Both the position numbers and the translations under genes were made by a program. 32,184 nucleotides of DNA from the NCBI GenBank assembly GCA_017427405.1, contig JAFRSV010000006.1, forward strand, positions 1 to 32,184, in the 5' to 3' direction. The first letter of the stretch is position 1. Each line of letters opens with the position of its first letter. This DNA is from Alphaproteobacteria bacterium (GTDB taxonomy: Bacteria; Pseudomonadota; Alphaproteobacteria; Rs-D84). The notes below the pieces were generated by a model. The model was not told the origin of the DNA, ran no database searches, and saw nothing but the letters and a program-made list of their open reading frames with translations. Of this stretch, positions 15,976 to 32,155 are shown one piece after another.

Positions 15976-16065
15976 TTATGATTCAAAAATCAAAGAATCA
16001 TAAAAACATTGGAAATCCAACACTTTTTTGCATTGGCCCACTTGAAAAATAAAGGATGGATACCT

Positions 16066-17538
16066 ATGTTCAAAAAGTGTCAGTCAAAGTGTCAAGCAGA
16101 TAAACATCTGTGGATACGAAATAACGTTTTTTATTATATGGTTGAATTACCACGTGAAAACGGCAAAAGACGGTATTTATGTAAATCTTTGCATACGACC
16201 AATTATTACGAAGCACAGGAAAAGGCAAAAATTATGGCAGAAAGTATAAGCAGAAAAGATTACGAAGCGAAAGCCTATGTGGTTGCAGCAAAAATCATTA
16301 TGAGAAAAATGGTTTTTGATAAACACACCGAACCTGACGGCACAGAAGTAATTCGTATATCACCAAAAACTGACCCAACCGTCCTTAAAGGTGCTTTGGA
16401 AATCGTTTCAAAAGAATTGGATTTATCATCACTTCCAAAAGCAGACCAAGAATTCATGAAAACTTTTGCGAAATACGTTGGTGATTATTTAATAAGTATC
16501 GGTGCTGTTCCAAAACCGAAATCAAATCCAAATTCAAACCACACTATCAAAGAAATAATGGAATCCATGCTAAAAAAAGCAGGCAACGTGAAAAACGTTG
16601 AACAAAACAGACGAACACTTATTACTAAAATGATTCAAAATGTCGGGCTAAGTATTGACGACAAGTATTCCAATTTTTATCAACCTGATATTATCCAAAA
16701 GATGTGCGATAATATAACGGCCATGAATGTTACCGGCACCGTGAAAAGAAATCATGCACGTGAAATTAAAAATTTAATCAACCATGCAAATTATATTGAC
16801 CCCGATACATATAAAACCAATTTGCTGAACCTGATACCAGAATTCAAAAAGACCAGAAAGAACGAAAGAAAACCGCACTGGCCATATACAAACGACGAAT
16901 TAAAACAAATATTTAATATTAAAAATGATTATTTCAACAAGAACCCACATATGTTTTGGTCTGTAATGATTGGACTGTTTTTAGGTGCACGAACTAATGC
17001 TGCAATCACATTGCAATATGCAGACATAGTAAATGTTGATGGTATCGATTGTCTTAAATTCCAAGACACGCATCCGATTAAACAATTAAAAAATGATGCG
17101 TCACGCAGAACTGTCCCTATTCCAAAACAATTATTGGATATGGGCTTTGTTACGTATTTTCAAAATCAAAAGGCTAAATTTAAAGCCAAAGATACTGATT
17201 TTATTTTTCCTACCTGTCAAACTGAATATGGTGGATATAACAATAAATTCATGACCCGTGGTTTTATTAAATACATCAAATATATCGGCATAACCGATAA
17301 TAACCCAAACAAACTCGATTTCCACTCATTGCGTAAAAATGCTAATCAACGGTTGGAAGAAGTTGGTGTATCCGAAACATTTATCAACGATATTATCGGT
17401 TGGGAAGGCAGAAGCACACGACAACAATCTTATTCGAACCATGATTTATTAAAAATTAAAGCCCAGGCCGATAAACTGCAATACGATTTCCTGCAAACAG
17501 AATTCGATTATTGGCGGGATGTGATGTCAAAAAAATAA
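16066..17538 (+). CDS. int: Tyrosine recombinase (integrase)
   Basis: A 490-residue integrase that should catalyse insertion and excision at tRNA-Thr. Residues 10-60 resemble the small N-terminal beta module that precedes many alphaproteobacterial integrases (LWIRNNVFYYMVELP). A core-binding domain lies at about 155-260 and the catalytic domain at 275-465. The catalytic set is visible: Arg309 (GARTNAAITL), Lys342 (QLKNDASRRTVPI), His420-x-x-Arg423 (DFHSLRKN), Trp446 (IIGWEG) in the H/W position, and nucleophile Tyr456 (RQQSYSNH). The start at 16066 has AAAGGA 9 bases upstream. An open stretch of 19 codons upstream lacks such a site. The first codons (KCQSKCQA) coincide with a tandem repeat copied at the far end of the element. 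Confidence 0.94.
   Translation: MFKKCQSKCQADKHLWIRNNVFYYMVELPRENGKRRYLCKSLHTTNYYEAQEKAKIMAESISRKDYEAKAYVVAAKIIMRKMVFDKHTEPDGTEVIRISPKTDPTVLKGALEIVSKELDLSSLPKADQEFMKTFAKYVGDYLISIGAVPKPKSNPNSNHTIKEIMESMLKKAGNVKNVEQNRRTLITKMIQNVGLSIDDKYSNFYQPDIIQKMCDNITAMNVTGTVKRNHAREIKNLINHANYIDPDTYKTNLLNLIPEFKKTRKNERKPHWPYTNDELKQIFNIKNDYFNKNPHMFWSVMIGLFLGARTNAAITLQYADIVNVDGIDCLKFQDTHPIKQLKNDASRRTVPIPKQLLDMGFVTYFQNQKAKFKAKDTDFIFPTCQTEYGGYNNKFMTRGFIKYIKYIGITDNNPNKLDFHSLRKNANQRLEEVGVSETFINDIIGWEGRSTRQQSYSNHDLLKIKAQADKLQYDFLQTEFDYWRDVMSKK
16073..16098 (+). repeat. Putative integrase arm sites, left
   Basis: Two head-to-tail 12-mers of the form AAAGTGYCARKC lie inside the first codons of int. A 26-base copy, identical at 22 positions and in the same orientation, lies at 25651-25676, inside the right end. 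Paired tandem repeats near both ends are what arm-type integrase binding sites look like. Confidence 0.45.
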
Positions 17539-17542
17539 TATG

Positions 17543-17594
17543 CGCTGGATGGTCGTCTGTATTTAATTCGCAAACACATATTACCATCCAAGCG
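17543..17594. terminator. Large stem-loop between convergent int and helicase genes
   Basis: CGCTGGATGGT (17543-17553) pairs with ACCATCCAAGCG (17583-17594), one bulged base, around a 29-base loop. It is the only structure in the 124-base convergent gap. It has no clean T-run on either side, so a role in stopping transcripts or protecting 3' ends is tentative. Confidence 0.35.
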
Positions 17595-17662
17595 TATTGA
17601 CCCAATAACGCAATTTAGAAAAAAACGCGCTTAGGGACAAATGGTGGTTTATTTACACCCTG

Positions 17663-19456
17663 TTATTCAGTAGGTGTATGCAACCCTGGAACTTTTGAGT
17701 TTATTTCCTTTATTTCCGCCAGTTGTTTTTCTTCGAATTTTTGTAATTCCTTTTGAGTTTTGAACCCAAGAATTTCCATATATTTTGTTTGGATGGTTTG
17801 ATAAAATATTGTGGCCTTTTCTTCAAGCCGTTGAACAAGCATTCGTGAAAATCTATTGCAGCAGACGCATTGGCAAAATTCGTAAGTAATATATTCATCA
17901 AAAATATGGTTTGCAGCTTCATAAAAATTATCCGGCATATTTGTGCATTTGGTTGTATCTTCTGCTTGTTTCAAACGTCGGAATAAATCCAATGCTAATA
18001 TACCGCCACGGTCTTTGGTCCAAGATGTTTGTAAAATCACTTGTTCGCTTAATGGCGTATTGTCATCATCTTCTTCCCAATAATCTGCTTCCGTTGGTTC
18101 GGGGCATTCTATCTGTGGCAGGTCATCTGGATTTGGTATCGCGGTAAAATATGGCAACAGACAATCATACAATTCGACTTTGGAAATTTTGCTGATTTTT
18201 TCATACTTGGTGTTCAATACATCGAATTTTTCACGTATCTTTAAATACTGTTCGCCGGACACAATATAAAATTTTGTGGAAGAAATATATGGCTTTCTGG
18301 TGAGCAATCCTTGTTCTGCCAGATATTCCAACGCATCTGGTATGGCATCTCGACGTTCTGGATTTACTAATTGTGTATGGCGAGAGTATTTAATATGTTC
18401 ATAAATATAACTTGGTGTTAACAATATGGTTTGATTCATTGTCAGCGGATTAGCGGGACATGTAAGTTCCATATTGTGATGCATGTATGCTAAAATATCA
18501 GCCATTGCAACCATACTGACGGCATTTTCGTTATTTATTGATACAACCTGATATAAATCATCGTAATGTTCAAAACTGGGCAAAGAATCCATAATATTTG
18601 TTATAATTTCCGTTAGTGTGCCTTCGCCTAATGGGCGACAGTTTAATCTTTTGCCGAATTTAATGGTGGCAACACGTCGTTGCCTTAAATAAACCATATC
18701 GTTTGACGCAAAAATGACGTTGGTGTTCACGTGAAATAAATATTGTCGTTTATTCTTTGGGTTAAGTTCAATGTCGCCACCATTTATCAAATTTATCACT
18801 TTATCACGGTCTATGTCGCTGGCTTTGGCCTCATCAAAATAAACCACATGGGTTTTATATAATAATTCTTCGTGTGGTGCTAATAAAAGTTTAACAGAAT
18901 TCGCTTTAAATACTGGGCCATATTGTTCTTCTACCTTCATAATAGCCTTGGCGGTTGCGGATTTACCGTTATGTGCAACACCGTTGAAAAATGCACATAA
19001 TTTATCGTCTTGTTCAAGTTCGCCATCGCGTAAATACTTCACTTGCATTAAAAAACACACCAACCCAAGATAACTTTTTTCATCAACCAGATTCAACCGA
19101 TACAGATTATCCACCAATTTATTGATGTCTGGACAGGCGTTTTCTTTCGCTTTTGTAATATTTTGATTGTATTTTTCCTTTTGAATTTCTTCTTTTTTAC
19201 GTTCGATTTTATCGGCAATACGGTCAATCGTTTTTGGTTGCCTTTCAATTAACGTTGCAATTCGTGGGGTGATATTATAATTCCGTTCTTCACCGGTAAT
19301 ATCATCCGTGGTTTTATACCTAATCGGGTTTTCTTTGAACGCTTCCATTGTGATGTCGTATGCGTTCGCCTGATTAAATTCAATGTTTCTGTATGCACAA
19401 TAAATAGCAATTATGCGTTCGTGTTCGTGCGTTAGCGATATTTTACTCTTCGCCAT
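17663..19456 (-). CDS. SF3/D5-like replicative helicase of the element
   Basis: A 597-residue protein. The AAA+ superfamily-3 core is readable: Walker A GVAHNGKS (159-166), Walker B HVVYFDE (203-209), motif C with NVIFASND (246-253) and a likely arginine finger RQRRV (259-263). A winged-helix segment follows at about 350-405 (TPSYIYEHIKYSR...ALEYLAEQGLL). A Cys cluster (CQCVCC) lies near 530. The N-terminal 110 residues are charged helix with no TOPRIM or archaeo-eukaryotic primase motif, unlike P4-type primase-helicases. AAAGGAG precedes the ATG by 8 bases. It diverges from the HUH endonuclease gene, and the two are likely partners in element replication. Confidence 0.88.
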   Translation of the reverse strand: MAKSKISLTHEHERIIAIYCAYRNIEFNQANAYDITMEAFKENPIRYKTTDDITGEERNYNITPRIATLIERQPKTIDRIADKIERKKEEIQKEKYNQNITKAKENACPDINKLVDNLYRLNLVDEKSYLGLVCFLMQVKYLRDGELEQDDKLCAFFNGVAHNGKSATAKAIMKVEEQYGPVFKANSVKLLLAPHEELLYKTHVVYFDEAKASDIDRDKVINLINGGDIELNPKNKRQYLFHVNTNVIFASNDMVYLRQRRVATIKFGKRLNCRPLGEGTLTEIITNIMDSLPSFEHYDDLYQVVSINNENAVSMVAMADILAYMHHNMELTCPANPLTMNQTILLTPSYIYEHIKYSRHTQLVNPERRDAIPDALEYLAEQGLLTRKPYISSTKFYIVSGEQYLKIREKFDVLNTKYEKISKISKVELYDCLLPYFTAIPNPDDLPQIECPEPTEADYWEEDDDNTPLSEQVILQTSWTKDRGGILALDLFRRLKQAEDTTKCTNMPDNFYEAANHIFDEYITYEFCQCVCCNRFSRMLVQRLEEKATIFYQTIQTKYMEILGFKTQKELQKFEEKQLAEIKEINSKVPGLHTPTE

Positions 19457-29883: not shown

Positions 29884-31464
29884 TTATTCCGCGATACTCC
29901 ACAACCAACAATGTTCATCGGTGTGTGTTTCACTGTCCCAACCGGCACAGGTCATTTTATTTTGTTTTTGGTCAAGGCCGACCTCTACTGCACCTACGGT
30001 TGGAATGGATTGACGAATCGCCGTTCTTTCGGTTGCATTACTGGTATATTCGTCAAGATCCCATGACGCTGAATCCCCGCCATCGGCATCCCAGAGAGCA
30101 ACCTGTTGCACTACACCGGCGGTGACGGTAGGGGCAAGTACACTGCTGGGTACATTGTTCATGACTTGCTGTCCTGGCACCAAATTGGTATCCTGGGCCG
30201 GAAGTTTATTTTGTTTTAACGCCAACCCCTGCGCCAAGGCGGCGGTGTTTATCAACTTAGTTTTATCTGCACTTGGCCAGGCGTTGGCCGTTGCGCCTGT
30301 ATCACCAACAAATTTTGTTTCGTATGCATTTGTTGATGTCGTTTCGGCCGAATTCCATGTAAGTGCGGTCCAAAATGGCATGGCATCCCATAAAGTAGTA
30401 TACAAATCCTCCAATCTACTGGCTACTAACGCTGCTGATGGGACAAAATTATCTCCGTTATTTTCGTATGCGAAATCTCCGAACGGCGTTGAGGTTGAGT
30501 TTAATGCAGAAAGGGTCATAAACCCAATCTGATTTCCACTTAAACCAGTTCCCGCCACATTTGTGGTAACAACAGATGGCACATTGATAGTTGCATCGTC
30601 ACCTTCAAACTCCACCAATCCGGTTGTGATTTTATTTTGTTTCAGTGCAAGGGAGTTTGCCAAAAATTGCCCGTTTATCAAATCTGTGCTTTGTCCCGCC
30701 CAATTGTTTGTGCCGTTTCCAAATGTTGTATTATATGCATTGATTGCGGCGGTTTGCGTGGCGCCATTGTCGGGGGTATTATTGATGAGCACAGACCAAG
30801 GAAGCAGGGACCAATCTAAGTAGTCAAAAATATTTTGCAATTCACGCGCCACGGCACCAACGGTGGGTATAAGGTATTCTACTTCTGAATCGCCTACGTA
30901 ATTCTTCCATCCATCATCCATGTAGTCCATTGACACATCAAGATGCAAAATACCGTATTTATTACCAACCAGTCCAGATGTAGAATCAAATGAAACAACA
31001 GACGGAAGATTTTCAATCCAATCATCCCCCACAGACACCAACCCGGTTTCGATAATATCCTGTTTCGTATCGACATACGCTTTGCTTGCCACGGTTTTCT
31101 TGTCCAATTCCGTTGGCACGGCAAATGACGGTGTGGCAACAAAGAGTGCAACAAATGCAGCAAACCACACCCCGGCGGGTGCTACCCGCCACCCCTCTCT
31201 AGAGGGGAACTTGTGGCATATTTTCTTTGTCATCCCGCTGAAAAGCGGGATCCCGTCAGTTTTACCGCAGACCAATTCTCTACAACACCGCGGAGATTCC
31301 GCGTTTCCGCGGAATGACGGCACTTTGTGTTCCCCTTCTTTCCAAGAAGGGGTGGCGCACGGAGTGCGACGGGGTAATTCCCATACCCCGCCCCGTTCCA
31401 CGGGGCACCCCTTTCCATCGGAAAGGGGAGATATCGTTTTGTTGAATAAATTTATCTTTTTCAT
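29884..31464 (-). CDS. Repeat-bearing secreted surface protein with palindrome array inside its signal peptide
   Basis: A 526-residue ORF. GAGAGGA precedes the ATG at 31464. Residues 1-10 (MKKINLFNKT) and 99-115 (VWFAAFVALFVATPSFA) together make one normal signal peptide. The 88 codons between them come from an array of DNA palindromes (31165-31436) and are full of Arg, Gly, Pro and Cys, unlike the rest. The mature part has three or four diverged repeats with motifs KxxLALKQNKI, then TGLV or NLVP, then VPSVV, then SIPTVGAVEVGL-like ends, reminiscent of phage tail fibre or adhesin modules. The end CAGWDSETHTDEHCWLW has paired Cys. Export may be lost or impaired by the insertion, or the array may be tolerated. 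Confidence 0.78.
   Translation of the reverse strand: MKKINLFNKTISPLSDGKGCPVERGGVWELPRRTPCATPSWKEGEHKVPSFRGNAESPRCCRELVCGKTDGIPLFSGMTKKICHKFPSREGWRVAPAGVWFAAFVALFVATPSFAVPTELDKKTVASKAYVDTKQDIIETGLVSVGDDWIENLPSVVSFDSTSGLVGNKYGILHLDVSMDYMDDGWKNYVGDSEVEYLIPTVGAVARELQNIFDYLDWSLLPWSVLINNTPDNGATQTAAINAYNTTFGNGTNNWAGQSTDLINGQFLANSLALKQNKITTGLVEFEGDDATINVPSVVTTNVAGTGLSGNQIGFMTLSALNSTSTPFGDFAYENNGDNFVPSAALVASRLEDLYTTLWDAMPFWTALTWNSAETTSTNAYETKFVGDTGATANAWPSADKTKLINTAALAQGLALKQNKLPAQDTNLVPGQQVMNNVPSSVLAPTVTAGVVQQVALWDADGGDSASWDLDEYTSNATERTAIRQSIPTVGAVEVGLDQKQNKMTCAGWDSETHTDEHCWLWSIAE
31165..31436. repeat. Palindrome array inserted in frame in a signal peptide
   Basis: About 270 bases carry at least eight separate hairpins: GGCGGGT/ACCCGCC, CCCCTCT/AGAGGGG, ATCCCGCT/AGCGGGAT, ATTCCGCG/CGCGGAAT, CCCCTTCTT/AAGAAGGGG, CGCAC/GTGCG, CCCCGT/ACGGGG and CCCCTTTCC/GGAAAGGGG. 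The inserted length is a multiple of three and contains no stop in the coding frame. Several modules recur at 31795-32155. Confidence 0.75.
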
Positions 31465-31494
31465 TGTGTCCTCTCCATTTTGTTTGTTGTTACG

Positions 31495-31519
31495 AAAAAA
31501 ACGTCGCCAAATGGGACGT
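31495..31519 (-). terminator. Attenuator-like terminator in the surface-protein leader
   Basis: On the minus strand ACGTC (31519-31515) pairs with GACGT (31505-31501) and is followed by a T-run, about 30 bases before the start codon at 31464. It would stop most transcripts before the gene, or release a small RNA of about 70 bases. Confidence 0.5.
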
Positions 31520-31794: not shown

Positions 31795-32155
31795 TCTTTC
31801 CGCCCCGCCACTTTCCCATGGAAAGGTGATCATCCCAGCCCTTGCGGCGGTATGACGAGGGTAAAAAGCGAGTTATGGCAGTTGCAAAGTTCCCCTCCAA
31901 TCACCGCAAAATTTGAAAAATTTTGTGGCTGATGATCGGAGGGGTGCCCAGTGGAACTGGGCGGGGTGGGGGTGAAGATAAAATATGTTTCTTTTTTTAT
32001 TACCCCCACCTCGTCGCCGTTCGGCGCCACTCCTCCAGGGGAGGAGAACTACCCATACCCCCGGCTGTTCAGCCGGACCCCTTTCCCAGGGAAAGGGGAG
32101 CCCCCCGCCCCGTTCCACGGGGCACCCCTCTATAAGAGGGGAACTTCGCTTTCTG
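31795..32155. repeat. Palindrome array at the right end
   Basis: A second dense array with GCCCAGT/ACTGGGC, GGTGGGGGT/ACCCCCACC (long loop), CTCCTCC/GGAGGAG, CCGGCT/AGCCGG, CCCCTTTCC/GGAAAGGGG, CCCCGT/ACGGGG and CCCCTCT/AGAGGGG. The CCCCGCCCCGTTCCACGGGG core and its neighbours repeat those of 31384-31420, and AGAGGGGAACTT recurs from 31201. TTTCTGGAAT follows at 32150. Open frames across it encode only repeat-derived Arg/Gly/Pro-rich sequence and are not called genes. Confidence 0.65.

Follow-up and report, generated by a model that had tools for sequence, protein, structure and literature searches.

How can a signal peptide be interrupted by a stack of palindromes while the gene that carries it stays open? 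This question is raised by one gene of the window, i.e. the whole 32,184-nt stretch of DNA analysed here (contig JAFRSV010000006.1, from the genome labelled G000). The ORF 29884-31464 on the minus strand is stop-free throughout its 526 aa, and its residues 11-98 correspond to 88 codons (264 nt) of palindromic DNA. A first-pass annotation had taken residues 1-10 and 99-115 as a single export signal around these palindromic codons, and this held on closer inspection: the insert is free of stops and in frame, and both core and cleavage motif are present. Cleavage after A115 is a prediction from this motif, and a signal peptide of 115 residues is of extreme length. The database gene call P0003 (449 aa) begins at M78, within the array. 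The features needed in the following are given below in window coordinates. R1 denotes a covariance model whose training set consisted solely of seven DUF559-flanking units taken from four genomes other than G000, DUF559 (PF04480) being what we take to be a Vsr-like nuclease.

31495..31519, minus strand: terminator-like hairpin ACGTC...GACGT with T run, directly upstream of the ribosome site (from sequence)
31470..31476, minus strand: Shine-Dalgarno sequence GGAGAGG, a strong ribosome site (from sequence)
31435..31464, minus strand: start codon (ATG, 31464-31462) and residues 1-10, the leader MKKINLFN.. common to sister genes
31380..31431, minus strand: G4-type double-hairpin unit, left end of an inverted pair (R1, E 2e-7)
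31332..31376, plus strand: inverted G4-type double-hairpin unit, right end of the pair (R1, E 1.8e-7)
31228..31319, minus strand: CGTC-type REP dimer (sequence compared with the definition in PMC3733652)
31231..31233, minus strand: ATG of M78, start of P0003, inside the REP and without ribosome-site motif
31165..31210, minus strand: lone G4-type double-hairpin unit, encoding ..KFPSREGWRVAPAGVW (R1, E 7.7e-6)
31120..31170, minus strand: signal-peptide h- and c-region, residues 99-115, VWFAAFVALFVATPSFA, with core and cleavage motif
29884..31119, minus strand: predicted mature secreted protein, of a family with TVASKAYVDTKQD behind the cleavage site
31891-31972 (plus), 32003-32049, 32052-32101 and 32103-32141 (all minus): extra G4-type units between the gene and the contig end (R1)

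In the case of the window protein, Pfam and NCBIfam searches gave no match. The AlphaFold2 model was weak overall (mean pLDDT of 52), with values below 50 for residues 1-98 and a helix at residues 99-109, so that the array residues are predicted to be unstructured; a PDB fold search with this weak model returned no match at E up to 0.001. Upstream of the start codon, a hairpin with a T run was also seen 5' of 17 of the 39 family genes scanned, its sequence varying. In many family genes, with or without inserts, this terminator-like hairpin ends 27-36 nt ahead of the start codon, and it may be an attenuator. In another part of the window (16009-19456), a phage-type integrase (PF00589) adjoins a DUF5906 protein, possibly as a small integrated element.

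The array itself is composed of four units: an inverted G4-type pair, a CGTC-type REP dimer and a lone G4-type unit. The three G4 units are double hairpins with CCCC/GGGG bases. The two R1 matches of the inverted pair are separated by 3 nt, a MITE-like and nuclease-free arrangement; no DUF559 nuclease is present between inverted units in the window's array. In the REP dimer (31319-31228), the tag CGTC, an 8-bp stem, the loop GAAA and a spacer are followed by an inverted unit tagged TGTC. Its stems, ATTCCGCG/CGCGGAAT and ATCCCGCT/AGCGGGAT, its loop and its unpaired tags agree with the definition of CGTC REPs, i.e. a tag CGTC/TGTC/CCTC, a stem of 8-9 bp from A-T pairs and a loop of 4-5 nt (PMC3733652, Di Nocera et al. 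2013). A CCA tail, which fits most but not all CGTC REPs (PMC3733652), is missing from the window units, where the tails read CTC and CCC; L012, a sister array, does have a CCA tail. Exact copies of the lone unit are found at G000:C10:34351 and C2:105454, and both palindrome kinds of the array occur outside the secreted-protein family too. As RNA, the stretch 31165-31500 folds with -142.7 kcal/mol (z = -6.05), none of 100 shuffles being as good, and Rfam gave matches solely below the gathering score. An assembly artefact was considered for the array and ruled out, as arrays are also present in the assemblies G050, G117, G120 and G125. Five contigs of G000 (the window's own, C2, C3, C13 and C14) end within about 200 bases of array-type palindromes. 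These repeats probably break the G000 assembly, and with contigs ending near such palindromes their copy numbers in this genome are lower bounds.

To place the gene among its relatives, a protein search was carried out. It gave 145 relatives, of which 120 were listed and combined with two window translations into a file of 122 proteins. The named records come from the metagenome assemblies RUG774, RUG13256, RGIG8185 and RGIG10173; the latter two are titled Alphaproteobacteria, from the rumen of water buffalo and yak, and the former two, in whose names RUG presumably stands for rumen, are titled proteobacterium. Within the genus, a match was obtained in 17 of the 157 genomes searched. Precomputed Pfam labels were present in three of the 120 relatives among the matches listed (PF00542 twice, PF26539 once). 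A family motif lies near the N-terminus in 106 of the 122 proteins (relatives among the matches listed plus the two window translations), and in these the presequence is 32 residues or shorter in 28 proteins and longer in 72, with no recognised site in 6. Five of the 28 (P0016, P0065, P0077, P0103 and P0107) start within palindrome-like sequence, and their genes were probably called too short; among the 72, P0047, P0081 and P0117 are insert-free genes whose start was called upstream.

Relatives without the insert, which the first-pass annotation had proposed to look for, were indeed found: insert-free paralogues have a presequence of about 20-22 aa, e.g. MKKIFILSSLIAVTLATPSFA. In the insert-bearing members, the palindromes follow the leader and precede the hydrophobic core; they are combined in many ways and sometimes nested. 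In the 19 genes with inserts that were located by the motif, among them the window gene, the presequence takes 14 different lengths, the shortest being 43 aa and the longest 146 aa. A single conserved long N-terminus in all orthologues, the pattern that had been named beforehand as contrary to an insertion, is therefore not what the family presents; some sisters have nothing at the insertion site, and others have a different stack there.

Array types, bodies and upstream regions are moreover reassorted among sister genes, and one promoter region is found with different arrays, and vice versa. In the largest body type (23 proteins), eight array classes, the empty one included, and one unclassified array were distinguished, 10 of the 23 proteins being insert-free; these array and body classes were defined by our own patterns. 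The malate dehydrogenase locus gives a view on the history of one position. In the window genome four units stand behind MKKINLFN, in G125 one unit stands behind a different leader, and in G074 the protein resembles, by eye, a distant insert-free member; in G050 no family gene was found within the 1500 bases examined. Because the makeup of the 5' part at this locus differs among relatives, it was probably replaced or built up recently.

Such observations could also be read in another way, in which the shared leader and the palindromes are a recombination anchor: hairpins would invite breaks, and sister genes would exchange the promoters, arrays and bodies of a surface-protein repertoire. The strong mosaicism, the exchange of arrays behind one promoter region and the reverse, and the differing 5' part among close relatives at the malate dehydrogenase locus are all consistent with this. 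However, palindromes are unnecessary for such an exchange, since insert-free genes join the mosaics in the largest body class as well, no breakpoint was mapped to a hairpin, and the shuffling may be a by-product. We consider an anchor function unlikely.

Whether the insert is coding was approached through its reading frame. In a leader-seeded test, genes were located by their leader DNA alone, blind to what follows downstream, in six genomes, one of which yielded none. Among the 21 places obtained, 2 led into an unrelated gene, 4 were insert-free and 15 carried inserts. Thirteen of these inserts were in frame to a conserved SK[AY]YVD motif, two were open to the contig end, and none was broken. 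All 13 readable inserts are in frame from M1 and have nine different lengths between them; with one in three per insertion, the chance of nine in-frame lengths is about 5e-5, with stops not yet counted and with the lengths being not fully independent because the architectures share sub-modules. In the 19 motif-seeded genes, frame 0 was open in every case. The five alternative frames together were open in 22 of 95 cases, and the two forward ones among these five in 5 of 38. L048, L057, L066 and L115, where the contig ends inside the array, were left out of the frame judgement. In the motif-seeded L051 (OMPY01000003.1), the leader sequence is intact upstream and the ATG is missing at the array start, and this gene is either a broken allele or a collapsed assembly. 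Outside the family and the gene queA, the length change was not divisible by three in 8 of the 9 unit copies with a net change, some of these nine being mutual duplicates and their intergenic position not being proved for each; 22 of 29 matches entered this comparison, the seven omitted being ungapped or the window itself.

A second line of evidence comes from the start sites. One of the sequences GGAG, GAGG or AGGA stands upstream of all 19 leader ATGs and of none of the 42 internal in-frame ATGs, and five of the 19 inserts are without any internal ATG. When GTG and TTG codons were checked, the motif was detected upstream solely at one in-frame TTG each in L006 and L027, whose inserts are near-identical and ATG-less. 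As the upstream frame is kept and the ribosome-site motif is found at leader ATGs and at no internal ATG, these sequence features indicate M1 as the most likely start of translation and the palindromes as coding.

This bears directly on the possibility that the array effectively stays untranslated as a 5' element, with a start at M78 or at another internal codon and with hairpins that tune mRNA stability or translation. P0003 would have a plausible signal peptide of 38 aa when started from M78, and the RNA structure of the array is very stable. In Pseudomonas putida and other species, REPs located where ORFs begin have been suggested to tune mRNA stability or translation, an untranslated nature being argued for the N-terminal REPs of several species (PMC3733652); whether N-terminal REPs in ORFs are genuinely coding is left open in that paper. 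The unbroken upstream frame in every readable insert, the bare internal ATGs and the inserts that have no ATG at all speak against it, the two TTGs with a motif being an exception. Overall, this is a rather improbable account of the array, and the downstream start that the annotation had offered as an alternative route does not hold as the main one.

In the case of the peptide itself, the evidence is more neutral. In the frame used, the net charge of the insert is positive in all 19 genes (+1 to +17), as an n-region needs; the other frames are often equally positive, and charge therefore gives no sign of selection. Pooled from six of eleven compared pairs, substitutions in the inserts amounted to 8.3 synonymous and 14.7 non-synonymous (pN/pS of 0.58), and these few neither demonstrate nor rule out constraint on the peptide. 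Lastly, regulation of export by the array, in which a long n-region slows or blocks targeting or hairpins gate translation and the degree of export varies by array, would fit n-region lengths that are extreme and variable inside one genome, but no link of array type to body type or to any condition emerged here and the array is built of repeats found outside the family too, which makes this very improbable and leaves the earlier suggestion that the insertion switches off or modulates export without support.

The reading that we prefer, and to which we assign a probability of roughly 0.6, is that the array is a stack of palindromes, likely mobile, in the n-region of a signal peptide, likely translated from M1 and predicted to be removed together with the signal peptide. 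Because of this predicted removal, selection would probably be confined to the reading frame. Several steps can be envisaged. Firstly, the units would have arrived by transposition-like insertion, the G4 units probably together with DUF559-type nuclease elements. Secondly, insertions out of frame would have been lost by killing the protein, and the basic, unstructured peptide would be tolerated, serving as a very long n-region until signal peptidase I removes it. Thirdly, whole 5' modules of promoter, leader and array would then have been swapped among sister genes by recombination. The removal of the inserted peptide, if it occurs as predicted, would explain why the signal-peptide site fills up.

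Tracing copies of the G4 units pointed to DUF559. In G000, queA (C2:83577-84980; L136, L182, L183) contains two in-frame DUF559 domains, each flanked by G4-type units, and no further DUF559 domains were found in this genome. Units are in frame here in the secreted-protein family and in queA. By eye, DUF559 is also in frame in queA in L189-L192 and L211, at one or both of these sites and of differing kinds. In the genus, DUF559 is matched in 64 of 152 genomes, and a CCCC..GGGG hairpin lies within 300 bp in 21 of 32 DUF559 loci versus 0 of 10 malate dehydrogenase loci. The 32 loci, some of them nearly identical, are the best one from each of 30 genomes together with the two in queA; the controls are 10 of 12 fetched. 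In the class, a DUF559 match was obtained in 93 of 289 genomes. Among 30 loci from other families of the class (L226-L255), a hairpin with a stem of at least 8 was present within 250 bp in 28, on both sides in 12, and as an identical hairpin on both sides in 10; in 58 control windows of these loci the corresponding numbers were 6, 0 and 0. The hairpins at the class loci are perfect and mostly C-rich, like CCCTCTCCC..GGGAGAGGG.

Model R1 connects these loci with the array. On the 32-kb window, its top three matches are the G4 units of the array (E 1.8e-7 to 7.7e-6), and elsewhere in the window it matches only the palindromes at 31.9-32.1 kb; arrays of sister genes are matched as well. DUF559 loci outside the training set were matched in 18 of 28 cases, not always adjacent to the gene, and 10 were missed. 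Of 24 control loci three were matched, two of these being one overlapping place in G055 and the third the G125 member of the family, which has an insert in its signal peptide. We tentatively propose, at somewhat less than even odds, that a large, so far undescribed class of mobile palindromes in alphaproteobacteria has the Vsr-like DUF559 nucleases as its autonomous partners. These nucleases would ride between inverted double-hairpin ends and home in frame into genes like queA, and nuclease-less derivatives would pile up in frame in the signal peptides of a secreted-protein family, where their translated product would be discarded by signal peptidase and thus be cheap for the host. Altogether, the first-pass annotation was borne out in part; the pattern of inserts across the family had escaped it, as had the fact that units of the DUF559-flanking kind make up three of the four.

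The repeated filling of one site in one family, with the frame kept wherever it can be read, argues by comparison that the palindromes are coding. As the extra peptide is likely made and is predicted to be cut off at export, the signal peptide would be a safe landing site for mobile palindromes. This suggests a general rule, by which selfish DNA would find safe shelter in regions that are removed in maturation, and the DUF559 link offers a candidate enzyme for G4-type palindromes. Rickettsia is already known to have palindromes in frame, as are other bacteria in the form of REPs, and coding palindromes are reportedly present in the mitochondria of Nematomorpha. In our searches of open-access literature we found neither a recurrent stacking of palindromes in signal peptides nor DUF559 as a companion of palindromes.

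The Rickettsia palindromic elements, with which the annotation had drawn a parallel, are similar in behaviour: palindromes stand in frame in genes and are kept as coding sequence, in an alphaproteobacterial host with a small genome. The parallel does not extend to the profile of RPE1 (TIGR01045, NCBIfam), which gave no match at E 10 in 10 family proteins; a six-frame RPE1 search of the genome also gave no match, though no control gave a signal. RPEs have been summarised as in-frame fusions in a review on MITEs (PMC10969869), and R. conorii proteins with an N-terminal RPE-1 are expressed (PMC3733652). RPE-4 and RPE-6 are CGTC REPs (PMC3733652), and one window unit is, by description, of this same kind. 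In contrast to the Rickettsia elements, three of the four window units are of another kind, and within one gene family, several units are stacked in many versions at a single site, the n-region of the signal peptide.

CGTC REPs are typical of alphaproteobacteria and at times intragenic (PMC3733652). The window dimer shares with them the tag CGTC/TGTC, an 8-bp stem beginning with A-T/T-A, a 4-nt loop and the arrangement as opposed dimers. It differs in its tails, which lack CCA, and a recurrent occupation of signal peptides is not among the traits described in the portions of PMC3733652 used here. A further likeness is to MITEs and to the 'REPtrons' of REP and RAYT, i.e. short palindromes that, in their more complete copies, lie on either side of a nuclease-type gene. 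The inverted pair at 31332-31431 resembles such an element minus its gene; unlike in the REPtrons, the gene between the ends is DUF559 here and not a tyrosine transposase.
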